Shown here: positions 775 to 35,668 of the stretch, one piece after another
Position numbering within the stretch: position 1 is the stretch's first letter
Layout: each line of letters begins with the position of its first letter
Assembly (NCBI RefSeq): GCF_902809815.1
Contig: NZ_CADDIL010000003.1
Location: 173,635-209,302, forward strand
Source of the DNA: Spiroplasma endosymbiont of Danaus chrysippus
Lineage (GTDB): Bacteria > Bacillota_I > Bacilli_A > Mycoplasmatales > VBWQ01
Direction: 5' to 3'
Length of the DNA: 35,668 nt
Translations under genes and position numbers: made by a program
Notes under the pieces: model-generated
Seen by the model: the letters and a program-made list of their open reading frames with translations, nothing else
What the model was told of the DNA's origin: nothing
Databases searched by the model: none

Positions 775-1032
775 CTATTCTCTTTTTATAAATTTAAATT
801 TCATATTTCCAATAGTATCTCTATTATTACCGACAATAATTAAATATCCAGTTTGATTATTTTCTAATATTCATGAATAATAAATATCTTGTGGATATAA
901 TTTTGGATATAAATTTAATGCTAATAAATAACATAAAGCATCTTCTTTATTTTTTAATAAACTTACTGTTTTACATATTATTTCTTTAGGACTTTTTTCA
1001 TTATAAAATCATTCAGTTTTAATGTTTCTCAT
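775..1032 (-). CDS. Phage-island protein of 85 residues (left copy)
   Basis: An 85-residue protein starting MRNIKTEWFYNEKSPKE, nearly identical to the one at 24982-25239. I do not recognise a family. It is rich in aromatic residues and mixed charge, with no clear membrane segment, and its C-terminal half looks beta-rich (GYLIIVGNNRDTIGNMKF). The start codon sits just downstream of the hammerhead-like RNA, and its Shine-Dalgarno AAAAGG overlaps the 3' strand of ribozyme stem II. Two tryptophans are encoded by TGA. Confidence 0.8.
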
Positions 1033-1044
1033 TATTTCACATCC

Positions 1045-1139
1045 TTTTATGAACTCATCAGCACCGTTTACTACGGTGGACTATAGAATTATAATGTTAT
1101 CCAAATTTTAATAATTCTATAGTTTCGTTCTGTATAAAA
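1045..1139 (-). ncRNA. Type II hammerhead ribozyme candidate (left copy)
   Basis: The sequence is identical over 95 nt to the copy at 24875-24969, read on the minus strand. It has the GAAA core, a perfect 12-bp stem III, a GUC cleavage triplet, a perfect 6-bp stem I and the CUGAUGA core. The outer ends pair as stem II (GUUC with GAAC, then AUAAAA with UUUUAU across a 3-nt bulge). Predicted cleavage falls between window positions 1079 and 1078. See the right copy for details. Confidence 0.87.
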
Positions 1140-1636: not shown

Positions 1637-2458
1637 CTAGACCTCAAAATTTTCTATAATTTCTTCTTCTTTTTCTAATTCTTTTAATTTAGATAAAGTA
1701 GAATTTATATCAGTATTATCAATATTATTATTTGAATTAATAATTTTTATTTCATCACCAGTATTATCTTTATAAGCAATTGTTTCTTCATCAATTACTA
1801 CACCTTGGTCTAATTGAAGTGCTAAATTAATATCATCTTGATTATTTAATACTATAATTGGTGTTTTATTAATTTCTCTAATTAATGCTTTAACTACTGT
1901 TTTTAAAGACATTTGGTCAAAACTAGTATTTCAAGGACTATCTTCACGCTTAGTTTTACTAAATTTTTTTCTTCATTCTTGACATTCTTCAACTGTCATA
2001 CCTTTATAAAAATTATTAACTTTACCATTTTTATCTAAAAGAGAAATATAACAATAATAACCAATAGTAGTAATAGTTTTTCTTTCAAAAATTAATGCTG
2101 GATTAATTTCTCATTTATTATTTTCTTTATTAAATTTATGTGCTGATGTTATTTTTTCTCTTTGAAAATCCATTACTAATCCAGTTCTTTGTAATAATGT
2201 TAATCAACCATCTTCTTGAATTTGCAATTGTAATTCATCACCATATGGAATTAATGCTAATTCTTTTTTAATAGGATTAATTGAAAGATTTAATTTATAT
2301 AAATTAATTAATGCATTAATTAAACTTTGAGTATTCATATTTTTTAAATCTTTACTAGAATTTATAATCATTTCATAATAATTTCTAAATTTTACATATT
2401 CTTCTTTATTACTTTTAATAAAATTAGGAATTTTTAATTCATTTTTATTATTACTCAT
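1637..2458 (-). CDS. recT: RecT-family ssDNA-annealing protein (left copy)
   Basis: A 273-residue RecT-like annealing protein that would pair complementary single strands during phage recombination. RecT-type features are the ALIPYGDELQLQIQ segment near residues 68-81 and SPWNTSFDQM near 174, followed by a basic helix; the C-terminus is acidic. The C-terminal third is nearly identical to the right copy. I chose the ATG at 2458 because it aligns with the right copy and has GAGGTG upstream; an in-frame ATG at 2479 would add seven residues. The start overlaps a 46-codon gene by 8 bp, and the exonuclease gene lies a little upstream. Confidence 0.87.
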
Positions 2459-2591
2459 TATCAAATTCACCTCTTTCAATTCTTTTAATTCAATTTTCTA
2501 ATTCATAAAGTTTCGATGAATCTTGTCTTAATACATTATTTAAAAAATCTATTCTTTCTTTTATACAAGCGATTATTTTTTCTTTATTCAT
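2451..2591 (-). CDS. Small protein of 46 residues, only in left island
   Basis: A 46-residue charged protein beginning MNKEKIIACIKERIDF. It lies between the 41-codon gene and recT and overlaps both by 8 bp. The right island lacks it. Its N-terminus resembles the 38-residue protein downstream of recT. The exact overlaps on both sides suggest a real, translated gene gained or lost as a cassette. Function unknown. Confidence 0.6.
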
Positions 2592-16248: not shown

Positions 16249-17961
16249 ATGAGTGATACACCCACAAAAAATACTATACCAGTTAAAAAGTTCGTCACGA
16301 AAATCTTTGCGCTTGGTGGGCTAGAAGAAGTTGGAAAAAATACTTATGTAATTGAACAAGATAATGAAATTATTATTATTGATGCTGGAGTAAAATTTGC
16401 TGATGCTTCTATGCCAGGAATTGAAGCAGTAATTCCTGATTATAGTTACCTAAAAGAAAATAAACATAAAATTAAAGGAATATTTATTACTCATGGTCAT
16501 GAAGATCATATTGGTGGTATACCATACTTATTAAAAGAAATTAGTGATATTCCAGCTATTTATGCTCCTAACTTAGCAGCAGCTTTAATTCGTCATAAAA
16601 TTAAGGACAAAGGAATAAAATCAAAAATAAAAATAAATATTGTTGATGGTAATAGTAAAATTAAAACTAACAGATTTATTATTAGTTTTTTTGCTGTTAA
16701 TCATTCAATTCCTGATGCATATGGAATTTGTGTAGAAAATTCAAATGGAACTGTTGTAACAACAGGTGATTATAAATTCGATTGAACACCTTTAGGTCAT
16801 AAAGCAGATATTGATAAAATGGCACAAATGGGTCAAAAAGGAGTAACATTATTTTTAGCAGATTCAACGAATGCTGAAGTACCCGGTTATACAATGACAG
16901 AAATGCTTGTTGTTAAAAGAATTAGTGAAATATTTGCTAAAGCAAAGGGCAGAATTTTAATTTCTACTTTTGCTTCTAATGTACACCGTTTACAACAAAT
17001 TATTGAAGTTGCAACAAAACATAATAGAAAAGTTATTGTTGTTGGAAGAAGTTTAGAAAGAATAGTTAATGTTATTCGTCAAATGGGACATTTAAAAGTT
17101 CGTGATAGTTCATTTATTAAAGCAGAAGAAGCTAAAAAATATGATAATAATCAAATTGTTATTATTTGTACGGGTTCCCAAGGTGAACCAATGGCAGCAT
17201 TATCAAGAATTGCTAATCGCGAACATCGTCAAATAAAAATTATACCCGGTGATACAGTAATATTCTCTTCATCAGCAATTCCCGGTAACCGTGCTGACGT
17301 TGAAAGAGTAGTTAATAAACTAACACGACTTAGTGCGATTGTTGAAGAAAATTCACCATTAAATTGATTGCATACTTCTGGTCATGCTTCACAAGAAGAA
17401 CAAAAATTAATGTTAAATTTAATTAAACCATCATACTTTATGCCAATGCATGGTGATTATCGAATGTTAAAAGTTCATAAAGAAACAGCTGTATCAATTG
17501 GAATCCCTGAAGAAAATATATTTATTTGTGCTAACGGTGATCCAATTATTATGGATAATGGTAAATGTTCTTTAAGCGATAAACGCATTGCTGCTGATCC
17601 TATTTATGTTGATGGTGGTAAAGATATGTCAGGAGTAACAACCGCTGCAGTAATCCGTGATAGACAAATTCTTTCTAAAGATGGTTTAATTGCAATTGTT
17701 GTTTCTATTGATTCACAAAATAATAAATTATTAGCACCACCAACGTTTATTTCTCGCGGTTCTTTCTATGTTCGTGATGCAGCACCTTTAGTATCTGAAG
17801 CAATATCATTACTAACAAAAGCTATTAATGAAGTATTAAAAAGCGAAAGACCTACTTTTGCTACAATAAAAAATGCTATCAAATCAACATTAGCACCTTA
17901 TATATTTAAAAAGAAAAGAAGAAACCCTTTAATTATTCCTGTTATATTAAATAAAAAATAG
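16249..17961 (+). CDS. rnj: Ribonuclease J
   Basis: A 570-residue metallo-beta-lactamase/beta-CASP nuclease for mRNA decay and RNA maturation. The zinc motif THGHEDHIGG places HGHEDH at 82-87. The metal-ligand Asp is in LADSTNAE (about 205), the beta-CASP region has ISTFASNVHRLQQI, and GHASQEEQ and PMHGDYRML follow. The C-terminal domain is of normal length. The frame runs through TGA tryptophans at 16784 and 17365. It has an AAGGAGAAAAAAT ribosome site. Whether it corresponds to J1 or J2 cannot be decided from one paralogue. Confidence 0.95.
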
Positions 17962-22273: not shown

Positions 22274-22396
22274 ATGGAATATAGAGAATATAGAATGAAT
22301 AGTTCTTGTGATAAATGTAGAAAACAATCTTCTTTTGGTAATAGATTATGTAATAAATGTTTTTGAATATTAATAGGTAGAAAAAAATATGAGTAA
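22274..22396 (+). CDS. Small four-cysteine zinc-ribbon protein (right copy)
   Basis: A 40-residue protein with CDKC (12-15) and CNKC (27-30), a probable zinc knuckle, and a short hydrophobic and basic tail (WILIGRKKYE). An in-frame ATG at 22256 overlaps the previous stop and would add six residues; the chosen start matches the left copy. The stop overlaps the nuclease start by 8 bp (ATGAGTAA), so the two are probably coupled. Confidence 0.65.
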
Positions 22397-23030
22397 ATTT
22401 ATTTTTAAAAAAGAAACTCATCAATATTTTTTAGAAAATAAAGAATTAATATCTGTTTCTAGAATTATTGATAATTATTTAGGTTTTGGATATAGTCATA
22501 TAGCACCAGAAGTATTAAAAAATGCTTCAGTTCGTGGTAAATGAGTTCATAAACTTAATGAATTATATTTACAAAATATTAATCAAGAAAATATAATTAA
22601 TAATTTATTAAAAAAATTAAAACCAGTAACTAATAATATAAATTATTCTTATTGTAAAAAATCACTTATATTTTTACAAGAAAAATTTAAAGATAAAAAT
22701 AATTATGAATTTATTATAGAAAAACCTATTAATGATAGTGTAATTGCTGGAACACCAGATTTAGTTTATTGAGATAAAAAAGAAAATAAATATTATTTAG
22801 TAGATTATAAAACTTATGCCTGTATAGATGATGATAAATTAAAAAGAATTAAATTACAATTAACTGCTTATTATTGTATGTTACTTGCTAATGGTATATG
22901 GCCATCTAATAAAACTTATGTTTATTTAACTAATAAAAATACTCAAAAAGAAATAGAAATTGAAATAACCAATGAATTAATACTTGAATGAATAAATGCA
23001 AAAACAAATTATTTTAAAGGAGAAAAATAA
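22389..23030 (+). CDS. PD-(D/E)XK exonuclease-like protein (right copy)
   Basis: A 213-residue protein with a Cas4/RecB/YqaJ-like nuclease core: ASVRGKWVHKLNELYL (46-61, the N-terminal helix with His54), Glu111 in IIEKPI, Asp124 in AGTPDLVY, Asp139 and Lys141 in VDYKTY, and the LQLTAYY motif (Gln157, Tyr161). These fit a metal-dependent exonuclease. There are no cysteines for a Cas4-type iron-sulfur cluster at the C-terminus. It lies three small genes upstream of recT, the classic phage exonuclease plus annealing-protein pairing. The substrate polarity is not known. Confidence 0.82.
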
Positions 23031-23452: not shown

Positions 23453-23560
23453 ATGGATAATCAAACTTTAATTTTATTAAAACACTTAGGAAAAATTAAT
23501 AAAAAATTAGATGAAATTTTAGAATTATTAAATAAAAAAGGAGAAGAAAATAATGAGTAA
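23453..23560 (+). CDS. Small helical protein, 35 residues (right copy)
   Basis: A 35-residue peptide, MDNQTLILLKHLGKINKKLDEI..., probably one amphipathic helix. AGGAG lies upstream. It overlaps the recT start by 8 bp. The left counterpart is 41 residues and overlaps a different gene there. Confidence 0.6.
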   Translation: MDNQTLILLKHLGKINKKLDEILELLNKKGEENNE

Positions 23561-24377
23561 TAATACTAAAAATGAATTAAAAATTCCTAATTTTATTAAA
23601 AGTAATAAAGAAGAATTATTAAAATTTAGAAATTATTATGAAATGATTAGAAATTCTAGTAAAGATTTAAGAAATATGAATCAACAAAGTTTATTTAATG
23701 CTTTATTTAATTTATATAAATTAAATCTTTCAATTAATCCTATTAAAAAAGAATTAGCATTAATTCCTTATGGTGATGAATTACAAGTTCAAATTCAAGA
23801 AGATGGTTGATTAACATTATTACAAAGAACTGGATTAGTAGTTGATTTTCAAAGAGAAAAAATAACAACTGCACATAAATTTAATAAAGAAAATAATAAA
23901 TGAGAAATTAATCCAGCATTAATTTTTGAAAGAAAAACTATTACTACTATTGGTTATTATTGTTATATTTCTCTTTTAGATAAAAATGGTAAAGTTAATA
24001 ATTTTTATAAAGGTATGACAGTTGAAGAATGTCAAGAATGAAGAAAAAAATTTAGTAAAACTAAGCGTGAAGATAGTCCTTGAAATACTAGTTTTGACCA
24101 AATGGCTTTAAAAACACTAGTTAAAGCATTAATTAGAGAAATTAATAAAACACCAATTATAGTATTAAATAATCAAGATGATATTAATTTAGCACTTCAA
24201 TTAGACCAAGGTGTAGTAATTGATGAAGAAACAATTGCTTATAAAGATAATACTGGTGATGAAATAAAAATTATTAATTCAAATAATAATATTGATAATA
24301 CTGATATAAATTCTACTTTATCTAAATTAAAAGAATTAGAAAAAGAAGAAGAAATTATAGAAAATTTTGAGGTCTAG
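23553..24377 (+). CDS. recT: RecT-family ssDNA-annealing protein (right copy)
   Basis: A 274-residue protein with the RecT signature layout: LNLSINPIKKELALIPYGDELQVQIQEDGWLTLL (about 57-90), a central beta region with KITTAHKF and TTIGYYCYISLLDK, then FYKGMTVEECQEW, and the diagnostic SPWNTSFDQMALKTLVKAL (175-193). The C-terminal 50 residues are acidic and low complexity. RecT proteins anneal complementary single strands and act with a phage exonuclease, here encoded at 22389. AAAGGAG precedes the ATG. Two tryptophans are TGA codons in the signature region. Confidence 0.92.
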
Positions 24378-24794: not shown

Positions 24795-24810
24795 ATAAAA
24801 TGATAGGCAT

Positions 24811-24856
24811 TTGACATATAACCTGTTTAACTCCTATTTTTATTTAAATATGTCAA
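24811..24856 (+). promoter_or_regulatory. Inverted repeat with TTGACA box (right copy)
   Basis: TTGACATAT (24811-24819) and ATATGTCAA (24848-24856) are perfect complements. The first arm contains a consensus -35 hexamer; TATTTT-like -10 candidates lie 17-18 bp downstream. It may be a promoter with operator for the downstream two genes, or an RNA hairpin just 5' of the ribozyme. Confidence 0.45.
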
Positions 24857-24874
24857 TGTAAGTCCTAAATTTTA

Positions 24875-24969
24875 TTTTATACAGAACGAAACTATAGAAT
24901 TATTAAAATTTGGATAACATTATAATTCTATAGTCCACCGTAGTAAACGGTGCTGATGAGTTCATAAAA
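24875..24969 (+). ncRNA. Type II hammerhead ribozyme candidate (right copy)
   Basis: Read 5' to 3': UUUUAU (24875-24880), ACA bulge, GAAC (24884-24887), core GAAA (24888-24891), stem III CUAUAGAAUUAU (24892-24903) with a 18-nt loop and AUAAUUCUAUAG (24922-24933), cleavage triplet GUC (24933-24935), stem I CACCGU (24936-24941), AGUAA loop, ACGGUG (24947-24952), core CUGAUGA (24953-24959), then GUUC (24960-24963) and AUAAAA (24964-24969) closing stem II. All conserved core bases and the G10.1-C11.1 and C15.2-G16.2 pairs are present. Stems I and III are closed and stem II is open, which defines type II. Cleavage is predicted after C24935. Confidence 0.9.
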
Positions 24970-24981
24970 GGATGTGAAATA

Positions 24982-25239
24982 ATGAGAAACATTAAAACTG
25001 AATGATTTTATAATGAAAAAAGTCCTAAAGAAATAATATGTAAAACAGTAAGTTTATTAAAAAATAAAGAAGATGCTTTATGTTATTTATTAGCATTAAA
25101 TTTATATCCAAAATTATATCCACAAGATATTTATTATTCATGAATATTAGAAAATAATCAAACTGGATATTTAATTATTGTCGGTAATAATAGAGATACT
25201 ATTGGAAATATGAAATTTAAATTTATAAAAGGAGAATAG
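24982..25239 (+). CDS. Phage-island protein of 85 residues (right copy)
   Basis: An 85-residue protein, MRNIKTEWFYNEKSPKE..., without a recognised domain. The middle (LLKNKEDALCYLLALNLYPKLYPQDIYYSWILE) looks helical and the end beta-rich. Its Shine-Dalgarno (AAAAGG, 24966-24971) overlaps the last four bases of ribozyme stem II, so its translation may depend on whether that stem is open. It ends 3 bp before the next gene. Confidence 0.8.
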
Positions 25240-25242
25240 AAA

Positions 25243-26073
25243 ATGCCAAATACAGAAAACTCACAATCAAATTATACTTTATTAAAATTAATAAGAACTG
25301 GAATAGCACCATTATCTGCCATGATTGGTACCAGTGCTTATTATGGTCAATTAATAGGAAATCCTATTTTAGGAAGTATTAATGCTTTATTATTTAGTAA
25401 AAAATTAGGAATTGATATTTGAAATTTAAATCAAATGCCAAGTTCAAAAACTAAATTAATTAATAGTAGTAAAAAAATATTATTAGGATTAGGAACAATT
25501 GGTTTAGTTAATTATAGTAAATTTACTAATGCAGATATTAATCCTAATCCAACAGAAAATCCAATAACAACTACTACTGTTGACCCATTTCCACCAGATT
25601 TATTATTTAGTAATCATGATACTATTGATAATCATTTAATGGATTGAGATACATATATATCTTTAAATTCATATGGTATTGCCAATTTGGTTGCTGGAAT
25701 TACTGAGTTAATACCTAATAAATTTGAAGCAATAAGAAAGATATGTAATATGGCTACTGGTGGTTGTTTGATTAGTAGTGGTGTAGCAATGGGTATAAAT
25801 AATGATTTTATGAATGCTTATGCAGTACCTACCATAATTGCTGGTGCAAGTGAAATTATTCATAATTTATTACCTATGGAAACAACTAATCATATTGAAG
25901 AAATGCAAGAAACACCATTTAATAATGAAACTACAAGATTAATTAATGATAATAGATTCACAATTAATAGTGAAACATCAAGTCAATATTATGGTAGTGA
26001 TAATATGACCGAAGTACCATTAAATTATGATAATGCTTCATTAAATTGAGATTATAATCACATGAGTTTATAA
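25243..26073 (+). CDS. Phage-island membrane protein, 276 residues
   Basis: I do not recognise this protein. It has hydrophobic, Gly-rich stretches at about residues 13-57 (IRTGIAPLSAMIGTSAYYG...), 73-88 and 145-225 (LVAGITELIPNKF..., GGCLISSGVAMGI, VPTIIAGASEIIHNLL), separated by a Pro/Thr-rich linker near 98-118 (NPTENPITTTTVDPFPPD). The C-terminus is polar and Asn-rich. This layout would suit a virion or membrane-associated phage protein. It is the last gene before the terminator; the left copy is cut by IS256 after residue 89. Confidence 0.78.
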
Positions 26074-26079
26074 ATAAGT

Positions 26080-26104
26080 AAAAATGCCTATTAAAGGCAT
26101 TTTT
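26080..26104 (+). terminator. Terminator of the right phage island
   Basis: AAAAATGCCT pairs with AGGCATTTTT across ATTAA. The IS256 copy begins at the very next base, so the T run after the stem belongs to the hairpin arm itself. Confidence 0.8.
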
Positions 26105-27479
26105 GGGAATGTTTAGTAATCTGTGTGACTTACAAAAATAACTATGTTTAATTAATTCTAGTAAATATAATTTATATATATAGAAAGAGTGAGTTACAGA
26201 TGGCTAAAAAAGATAATCTTAATAACAATGATCCAATATCAAAAGCAGTAGATTTATTATTAGAAAATACTGAGGATTTAACAACAGTTTTTAAAGAGGG
26301 AGGCTTATATAAAGAATTAACTAAACGATTGGTAGAAAAAATGTTGAATTCTGAGATGCAAAATTATTTAGGACACGAAAGAAATCAACGCAGTAATAAT
26401 GACAATGTTCGTAATGGTACAACATCAAAAAAATTAATAACTCAACAAGGTAAAATTGAAATTGATGTACCAAGAGATCGTAATAGTAATTTTGAACCAG
26501 TAATAATCACAAAAAGACAGAGAAGATTTGATGGTTTTGATCAACAAGTTCTTTCACTATATGCAAAAGGTATGACTTTATCAGATATTAGAATGCAGTT
26601 GCAAGAGTTATATGATGGCGCAGATATTAGCGAAAGCGTAATTAGTCAAATTACTGATGATGTCATTGATGATGTCAAAGCATGGCAAAATCGTCCATTA
26701 GATAGTGTTTATCCAATCATTTATTTTGATTGTATCGTAGTTAAAGTACGTCAGGATAAACGTATTATTAACAAATCAGTTTATATAGCTTTAGGAGTTG
26801 ATTTAGAAGGTAAAAAAGATGTTTTAGGTTTATGAATTAGTGAAAATGAAGGTGCTAAATTCTGATTAAATAATTTTACAGAAATGAAAAATCGAGGCTT
26901 AAATGATATTCTTATTGCTTGTAGTGATAATTTAACAGGCATGTCAGAGGCAATACAATCAGTTTATCCTAAAACTGAACATCAATTATGCATAGTTCAT
27001 CAAATTAGAAATAGCTTAAAATATGTTTCATACAAACATCGAAAGTCTCTAGTTATCGATTTAAAGCCAATTTATACAGCATGTAGTGAAGAACAAGCAA
27101 TGCAAGCTTTAGAATCATTTGAAAGTAAATGAAATAAACAATATCCACAAATTGCTAAATCTTGATATAAAAATTGAGAAAATTTAATGGTTTTTATTAG
27201 TTATCCAGCAGAAATTAAAAGGGTAATTTATACTACAAATGCTATTGAATCTGTTAATAGCCAATTACGAAAAGTTATTAGAAATAAAAAAGTTTTTCCT
27301 AATGATATGGCAGTTTTTAAAATTTTTTACTTAGCAATTGAAAATATCACAAAAAAATGAACATTGCCTATTCAAAATTGAAATACAGCAATTGCTCATT
27401 TTATGATAAAATTTGAAGACAGAATTAATCTGAACTAGTACTTTGTAAAACAAAGAAACACAGATTACTAAAAAGCCTC
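26105..27479 (+). mobile_element. IS256-family element, copy 2 (complete)
   Basis: A 1375-bp element with the inner repeat TTTAGTAATCTGTGT at both ends; the outer ends are GGGAATG on the transposase-start side and GAGGCTT on the other. Copy 3 has the same length and ends. IS256 elements usually make an 8-bp target duplication; none is visible here, so one end may have rearranged. Confidence 0.9.
26200..27438 (+). CDS. IS256-family transposase (complete)
   Basis: A 412-residue mutator-type transposase. Catalytic residues: Asp177 ([12 protein letters not shown]), Asp243 ([10 protein letters not shown], followed by the conserved [13 protein letters not shown]) and Glu350 ([14 protein letters not shown]). 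The N-terminal region holds the DNA-binding part. Several tryptophans are TGA, so it is full length only under code 4. GAGTGAG-type ribosome site upstream. Confidence 0.96.
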
Positions 27480-34290: not shown

Positions 34291-35665
34291 GAGGCTTTTT
34301 AGTAATCTGTGTTTCTTTGTTTTACAAAGTACTAGTTCAGATTAATTCTGTCTTCAAATTTTATCATAAAATGAGCAATTGCTGTATTTCAATTTTGAAT
34401 AGGCAATGTTCATTTTTTTGTGATATTTTCAATTGCTAAGTAAAAAATTTTAAAAACTGCCATATCATTAGGAAAAACTTTTTTATTTCTAATAACTTTT
34501 CGTAATTGGCTATTAACAGATTCAATAGCATTTGTAGTATAAATTACCCTTTTAATTTCTGCTGGATAACTAATAAAAACCATTAAATTTTCTCAATTTT
34601 TATATCAAGATTTAGCAATTTGTGGATATTGTTTATTTCATTTACTTTCAAATGATTCTAAAGCTTGCATTGCTTGTTCTTCACTACATGCTGTATAAAT
34701 TGGCTTTAAATCGATAACTAGAGACTTTCGATGTTTGTATGAAACATATTTTAAGCTATTTCTAATTTGATGAACTATGCATAATTGATGTTCAGTTTTA
34801 GGATAAACTGATTGTATTGCCTCTGACATGCCTGTTAAATTATCACTACAAGCAATAAGAATATCATTTAAGCCTCGATTTTTCATTTCTGTAAAATTAT
34901 TTAATCAGAATTTAGCACCTTCATTTTCACTAATTCATAAACCTAAAACATCTTTTTTACCTTCTAAATCAACTCCTAAAGCTATATAAACTGATTTGTT
35001 AATAATACGTTTATCCTGACGTACTTTAACTACGATACAATCAAAATAAATGATTGGATAAACACTATCTAATGGACGATTTTGCCATGCTTTGACATCA
35101 TCAATGACATCATCAGTAATTTGACTAATTACGCTTTCGCTAATATCTGCGCCATCATATAACTCTTGCAACTGCATTCTAATATCTGATAAAGTCATAC
35201 CTTTTGCATATAGTGAAAGAACTTGTTGATCAAAACCATCAAATCTTCTCTGTCTTTTTGTGATTATTACTGGTTCAAAATTACTATTGCGATCTCTTGG
35301 TACATCAATTTCAATTTTACCTTGTTGAGTTATTAATTTTTTTGATGTTGTACCATTACGAACATTGTCATTATTACTGCGTTGATTTCTTTCGTGTCCT
35401 AAATAATTTTGCATCTCAGAATTCAACATTTTTTCTACCAATCGTTTAGTTAATTCTTTATATAAGCCTCCCTCTTTAAAAACTGTTGTTAAATCCTCAG
35501 TATTTTCTAATAATAAATCTACTGCTTTTGATATTGGATCATTGTTATTAAGATTATCTTTTTTAGCCATCTGTAACTCACTCTTTCTAGATATATAAAT
35601 TATATTTACTAGAATTAATTAAACATAGTTATTTTTGTAAGTCACACAGATTACTAAACATTCCC
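34291..35665 (-). mobile_element. IS256-family element, copy 3 (complete)
   Basis: A 1375-bp copy in reverse orientation to copy 2 with identical ends: GAGGCTTTTTAGTAATCTG at 34291 and, on the other side, ...ACTAAACATTCCC to 35665. Only three flanking bases remain on the right, so a target duplication cannot be checked. With copy 2 it brackets the ABC cluster. Confidence 0.92.
34332..35570 (-). CDS. IS256-family transposase (complete, copy 3)
   Basis: A 412-residue transposase, identical to the 26200-27438 protein wherever I compared, including the three catalytic residues and the TGA tryptophans. The identity points to recent transposition and makes the two copies ready substrates for homologous recombination. 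Confidence 0.96.
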
Positions 35666-35668
35666 AAA

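Follow-up and report, generated by a model that had tools for sequence, protein, structure and literature searches.

A conserved type II hammerhead ribozyme, predicted to be self-cleaving, ahead of a small gene in phage-derived DNA of Spiroplasma

The window analysed here, a stretch of 35,668 nt from the genome of the Spiroplasma endosymbiont of Danaus chrysippus, corresponds to G000:C3:173635-209302 (the source genome, G000, has 12 contigs and 1,745,430 bases). Reading frames are open under translation table 4 and broken under table 11. A phage-type island on the forward strand carries genes for an exonuclease and a RecT protein, with small genes between them, followed by a leader with an inverted repeat, a hammerhead ribozyme and two genes of one operon encoding proteins of 85 and 276 aa (Table 1). 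The 85-aa protein has no Pfam or PHROG match; the 276-aa protein is probably helical, as judged from a model of low confidence. With mean pLDDT values of 59 and 31, respectively, the predicted structures of the two were not reliable enough for structure searches. Downstream of the 276-aa gene lies an IS256-type (Mutator family) transposase gene. Transposase copies of this type at 26102-27479, 34291-35668 and 1-506 are identical or near-identical, and one copy interrupts the 276-aa gene of a second, inverted recT island at the left of the window. A host gene of the Ribonuclease J1 type is situated at 16249-17961.

Table 1. Features of the two recT islands (positions in the window)
Feature	Position	Strand	Details
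PD-(D/E)XK exonuclease gene, upstream	22389..23030	+	PF12705; phrog_298 exonuclease
RecT single-strand annealing protein gene, upstream	23553..24377	+	PF03837 (4.7e-25); phrog_148
Conserved leader	24804..24868	+	inverted repeat UUGACAUAU/AUAUGUCAA, variable middle
Type II hammerhead ribozyme, catalytic unit	24884..24963	+	stems II/III/I of 4/13/6 bp
Stem II, 5' strand GAAC	24884-24887	+
GAAA	24888-24891	+	final A is A15.1
Stem III	24891-24903 / 24922-24934	+	13 bp including A15.1-U16.1; 18-nt loop
GUC	24933-24935	+	H17 is C24935
Predicted self-cleavage site	24935..24936	+	after C17 of GUC, from H17 in hammerhead numbering
Stem I, CACCGU/ACGGUG	24936-24941 / 24947-24952	+	6 bp, loop AGUAA
Loop I	24942..24946	+	AGUAA here; UUAUU, UAAAU, UUAUUU, UUGUU in relatives
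CUGAUGA	24953-24959	+
Stem II, 3' strand GUUC	24960-24963	+	pairs with GAAC, 4 bp; G10.1-C11.1 present
Possible hairpin UUCAUA-AAAGGA-UGUGAA	24961..24978	+	ViennaRNA; weak, -2.3 kcal/mol
3' tail AUAAAA	24964..24969	+	can pair with UUUAU of loop I in most alleles, not in the window allele
Ribosome-binding site AAAGGA of 85-aa gene	24967..24972	+	9 nt before ATG at 24982; starts 3 nt past stem II
85-aa gene, directly downstream	24982..25239	+
276-aa gene, next in same operon	25243..26073	+
85-aa gene, second copy	775..1032	-	ORF list, table 4
Ribozyme, second, identical copy	1051..1130	-	cleavage predicted between 1079 and 1078; R1 match 1039-1130
RecT gene, second copy	1637..2479	-	TIGR00616

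Reading of the sequence identified every invariant nucleotide of the hammerhead core, with segments in the order GAAC-GAAA-stem III-GUC-stem I-CUGAUGA-GUUC. This is the type II order: stem II is open, while stems I and III are closed by loops. The segments common to hammerheads of any type (CUGANGA, GAAA and UH, with the pairs A15.1-U16.1 and G10.1-C11.1) are present here and in all 17 intact copies described below, and three helices of 4, 13 and 6 bp surround the core. An earlier note, made from the sequence alone, had proposed a complete core in the permuted type II order with a 6-bp stem I; both our reading and a scanner bear this out. Its perfect 12-bp stem III is correct as long as A15.1-U16.1 is left out; with this pair the stem has 13 bp. 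No open frame runs through the ribozyme unbroken, apart from stretches of chance length.

The scanner, which required an exact hammerhead core and imposed limits on stem lengths, reported two sites in the window, 24884-24963 on the plus strand and the identical minus-strand copy at 1130-1051, with no third. When set to types I, II and III, it found no further candidate on either strand of 791,666 bases of related DNA. In 300 dinucleotide shuffles, look-alikes arose at 0.02 per window with loose stem limits and not once (0/300) with strict limits of at least 5/8/4 bp, in line with the very small chance put forward in the earlier note. Energy models favour stems I and III and leave stem II weak; in longer RNA ViennaRNA, whose scoring does not extend to the hammerhead core, gives stem II a probability of at most 8%.

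One could suppose that the long palindrome of stem III is a terminator or a DNA site and that the core around it is coincidental. Stem III is indeed a strong hairpin, and Rfam reports no ribozyme. This explanation is very improbable given that the core is complete in its three segments, that all the stems and the G-C pair at 10.1/11.1 are there too, with invariance extending beyond stem III, that none of the 300 shuffles reproduced them at strict limits, and that stem III has no following U-tract and is not listed by a terminator scan.

The earlier note had expected a match to the Rfam hammerhead models and had named a low covariance-model score as counting against the assignment. The score is low: RF02276 (Hammerhead_II) gave no match at E <= 10 in the window, in the relatives or in three whole genomes, and scans at several window sizes returned noise with no type II match. 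The model RF00008 reached only 14.8 bits, in a different register. The RF02276 gathering cut-off of 37 bits is a threshold of detection, not a chemical definition. The miss may be due to the long stem III with its 18-nt loop together with the AU-rich composition. The case for the ribozyme is carried by the exact core, the chance estimate and sequence conservation, not by Rfam; by all sequence tests other than the Rfam cut-off, the catalytic unit is a real type II hammerhead, with catalysis predicted.

To follow the family across genomes we used R1, a covariance model built from this ribozyme family, which scores the window ribozyme at 118.9 bits (the family itself being included in the model). 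In the source genome R1 detected 10 intact copies together with a truncated one; G001 and G003, both congeneric, have four and three copies, respectively. The 245 other genomes searched within the order had none, and 395 genomes sampled from the class added one false match: a weak hit (26 bits) in another Bacilli genome, G497, rejected as lacking the hammerhead core. All 17 intact ribozymes are found in phage remnants of the recT/exonuclease kind, each immediately ahead of the 85-aa gene; conversely, each of the 17 starts of the 85-aa gene in the three genomes has a ribozyme upstream. The core, its permuted order, conservation and the recT/exonuclease linkage support the earlier proposal that this phage-type recT island of Spiroplasma carries a type II hammerhead. 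Searches with the ribozyme DNA and with the 85-aa, 276-aa and RecT proteins against phage, plasmid and IMG/VR collections gave no match. More distant recT islands in G004 and G001 (53-55% identity) have no hammerhead of any type.

Eight alleles were compared. Outside loop I, the ribozyme (core, stems and loop III) had 0/75 variable sites, while the first 30 codons of the adjacent downstream coding sequence had 12/90 (Fisher P = 4.9e-4, the alleles being related and the test treating sites rather than events). Loop I is the only freely variable part of the ribozyme, with a mean pairwise difference of 37% among these alleles. Since the differences are confined to loop I and one indel in the A-run of loop III, variation falls where a hammerhead tolerates it. 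No stem position varies and no compensatory changes are seen; with zero changes in the stems, covariation offers no proof of the pairing. Loop III (18 nt, 24904-24921, UAAAAUUUGGAUAACAUU) is invariant save for the A-run indel, a near-invariance that the ribozyme fold does not account for.

The leader repeat (24804-24868) lies always just ahead of the ribozyme, with UAGG/CCUA outside its arms and a middle that varies in length. Its arms had 0/17 and 1/25 variable sites and its middle 15/24. It folds as a hairpin, and the inverted repeat could be an RNA hairpin or an operator. A promoter at TTGACA (24811) was considered but is not claimed: there is no conserved -10 element among the copies, and promoter-like matches are as numerous as in shuffled sequence.

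In most type II hammerheads loop I can pair with the strand that immediately follows stem II on its 3' side, and in one tested example disruption of the contact made the reaction slower by a factor of 20 to over 100 (PMC3088659). This pseudoknot, of at least 4 bp, is found in the majority of members, not in all. Pairing of UUUAU in loop I with AUAAA in the tail is possible in 6/8 alleles, in one via a G-U pair, but such short AU matches are not significant against shuffled loops. The window allele, with loop AGUAA, and one other (L003) are without it; pairing of the window loop with the 5' flank instead (AGUAAA/UUUAUU) was no better than for shuffled loops and was discarded. The same AUAAAA would serve an outer stem II of 6 bp, UUUUAU (24875-24880) with AUAAAA (24964-24969), which the earlier note had added to the inner 4 bp. 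The inner pairs stand, and the outer ones can form in the window copy; as a conserved feature the outer helix is unsupported because its register shifts between alleles, UUUUAU being 3 nt from GAAC in the window copy vs ∼9 nt in other alleles.

Loss of the complementarity between loop I and the 3' tail in the window allele would suit a relic, active in an ancestral phage and now carried passively, with little or no cleavage, in decaying copies riddled with IS elements. The islands are broken by such elements and contain truncated genes, no obvious structural phage module lies beside them, and the six identical copies in the source genome may be recent duplicates. We nevertheless regard a relic as unlikely: the ribozyme is strictly conserved across three genomes while the adjoining coding sequence and leader have changed, and the RecT and 85-aa genes are still open in most copies.

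We consider it probable, on the evidence of sequence, that a genuine type II hammerhead in an early phage operon leader cuts itself and separates the recT-side message from the downstream one. Cleavage, end protection and an effect on expression are what we infer from the observed motif, its conservation and its fixed position. As the polymerase passes, stems III and I would form, GUUC would pair with GAAC and the RNA would be cut at 24935/24936. The upstream RNA would be left with a 2',3'-cyclic phosphate after the 13-bp stem III at its 3' end. The message that encodes the 85-aa and 276-aa proteins would have a 5'-hydroxyl, would open with the hairpin of stem I (6 bp) and would begin 46 nt ahead of the start codon. 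5'-OH ends are poor substrates for 5' exonucleases of the RNase J type. The likely effect would be two separated messages, each with a protected end, which might thereby give the downstream genes stability and translation of their own.

Folding with ViennaRNA suggests a hairpin that displays the ribosome-binding site in its loop and excludes stem II of the ribozyme; the prediction holds for the full RNA as well as for the 3' product. The modelled probability of stem II falls from ∼0.4 to 0.07 once the transcript reaches 24978 and the hairpin forms. Because transcription of UGUGAA (24973-24978) costs the RNA its stem II, the model hints at cutting during transcription.

Such competition could also mean that the leader is regulated, with the upstream hairpin, loop III or the ribosome-binding-site hairpin controlling the cutting. 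Besides the drop of stem II at 24978 and the prediction of the hairpin in both RNAs, the conservation of the leader arms and loop III, which matches that of the core, is in line with this. We find such control improbable: the hairpin is weak, the ribozyme by itself accounts for the conservation of the shared bases, and no ligand, protein or condition is indicated. In a particular form of the idea, GUUCAUA is needed both for stem II and for the site-presenting hairpin, which makes the two mutually exclusive, so that cutting would have to occur before ∼24978 is transcribed or the ribosome binds. That transcription and ribosome arrival decide the cutting in this way, making the leader self-timed, is improbable as well; if true, cutting would free the ribosome site, and in many repeated islands the translation of a single small phage gene would be coupled to self-cleavage.

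Separation of messages by self-cleavage agrees with what is known of other hammerheads. Type II hammerheads are a kind already known from phages; they occur commonly in bacteria, in many cases close to prophage genes, and one proposal is that they divide long phage transcripts into mRNAs the length of a gene or an operon (PMC3088659). The Spiroplasma ribozyme shares with the bacterial and phage members (Perreault et al. 2011, PMC3088659; RF02276) the core, the permuted order with open stem II, the GUC-type cleavage site, the phage or prophage context and, in most alleles, the possible pairing of loop I with the 3' tail. Unlike them, it has a stem III of 13 bp with a conserved 18-nt loop, is AU-rich, escapes RF02276 and forms a many-copy family in a mollicute, and its window allele is without the usual pseudoknot. 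As far as the searched open-access literature shows, it is the first hammerhead in mollicutes.

The HHphage ribozyme of haloviruses HF1/HF2 (PMC3088659) is likewise located just upstream of the first start codon of an early phage operon, 13 nt before it, and the transcript 5' end lies within 3 nt of the cleavage site, which fits the proposal that the cut sets the 5' end of the downstream mRNA; in both systems cleavage would set that end. The hosts of HF1/HF2 are halophilic archaea and their variant core is thought to need high salt, whereas the Spiroplasma core is fully canonical; the gene downstream in HF1/HF2 is unrelated to the 85-aa gene. Clustered hammerheads that flank prophage genes in the A. 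tumefaciens ardA region and in C. scindens (PMC3088659) lie, as here, between genes of a polycistronic phage transcript; in contrast to these clusters, each Spiroplasma island has one ribozyme, and the small gene that follows it never differs.

For the question of what hammerheads do in bacteria and their phages, the Spiroplasma family is well suited: a single ribozyme precedes a single fixed gene, differences between the natural alleles are nearly all in loop I, and related phage islands lacking the ribozyme are available for comparison. Since AU-rich hammerheads with a long stem III can escape current Rfam models, counts in AT-rich genomes may be too low.

Two tandem truncated copies of leader and ribozyme (L027/L037) occur at G000:C2:80600-80960, one of which ends in CTATAGT followed by assembly N. 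A partial copy at G000:C2:80827-80957 that seemed to end near the cleavage site was discounted, its end being assembly N. Spiroplasma ixodetis SHM (NZ_AP026933.1) has the 276-aa gene in 16 places with no hammerhead nearby; the small gene ahead of it is likely a weakly similar positional counterpart of the 85-aa gene, and in several copies its start plainly overlaps the preceding gene, a contrast that counts in favour of a role for the ribozyme in separating the two messages. The islands with the 276-aa gene in this genome (L039-L054) number at least 16; some have large downstream phage-like genes, with no PHROG of known function, and the islands look like a poorly described family of Spiroplasma phages.
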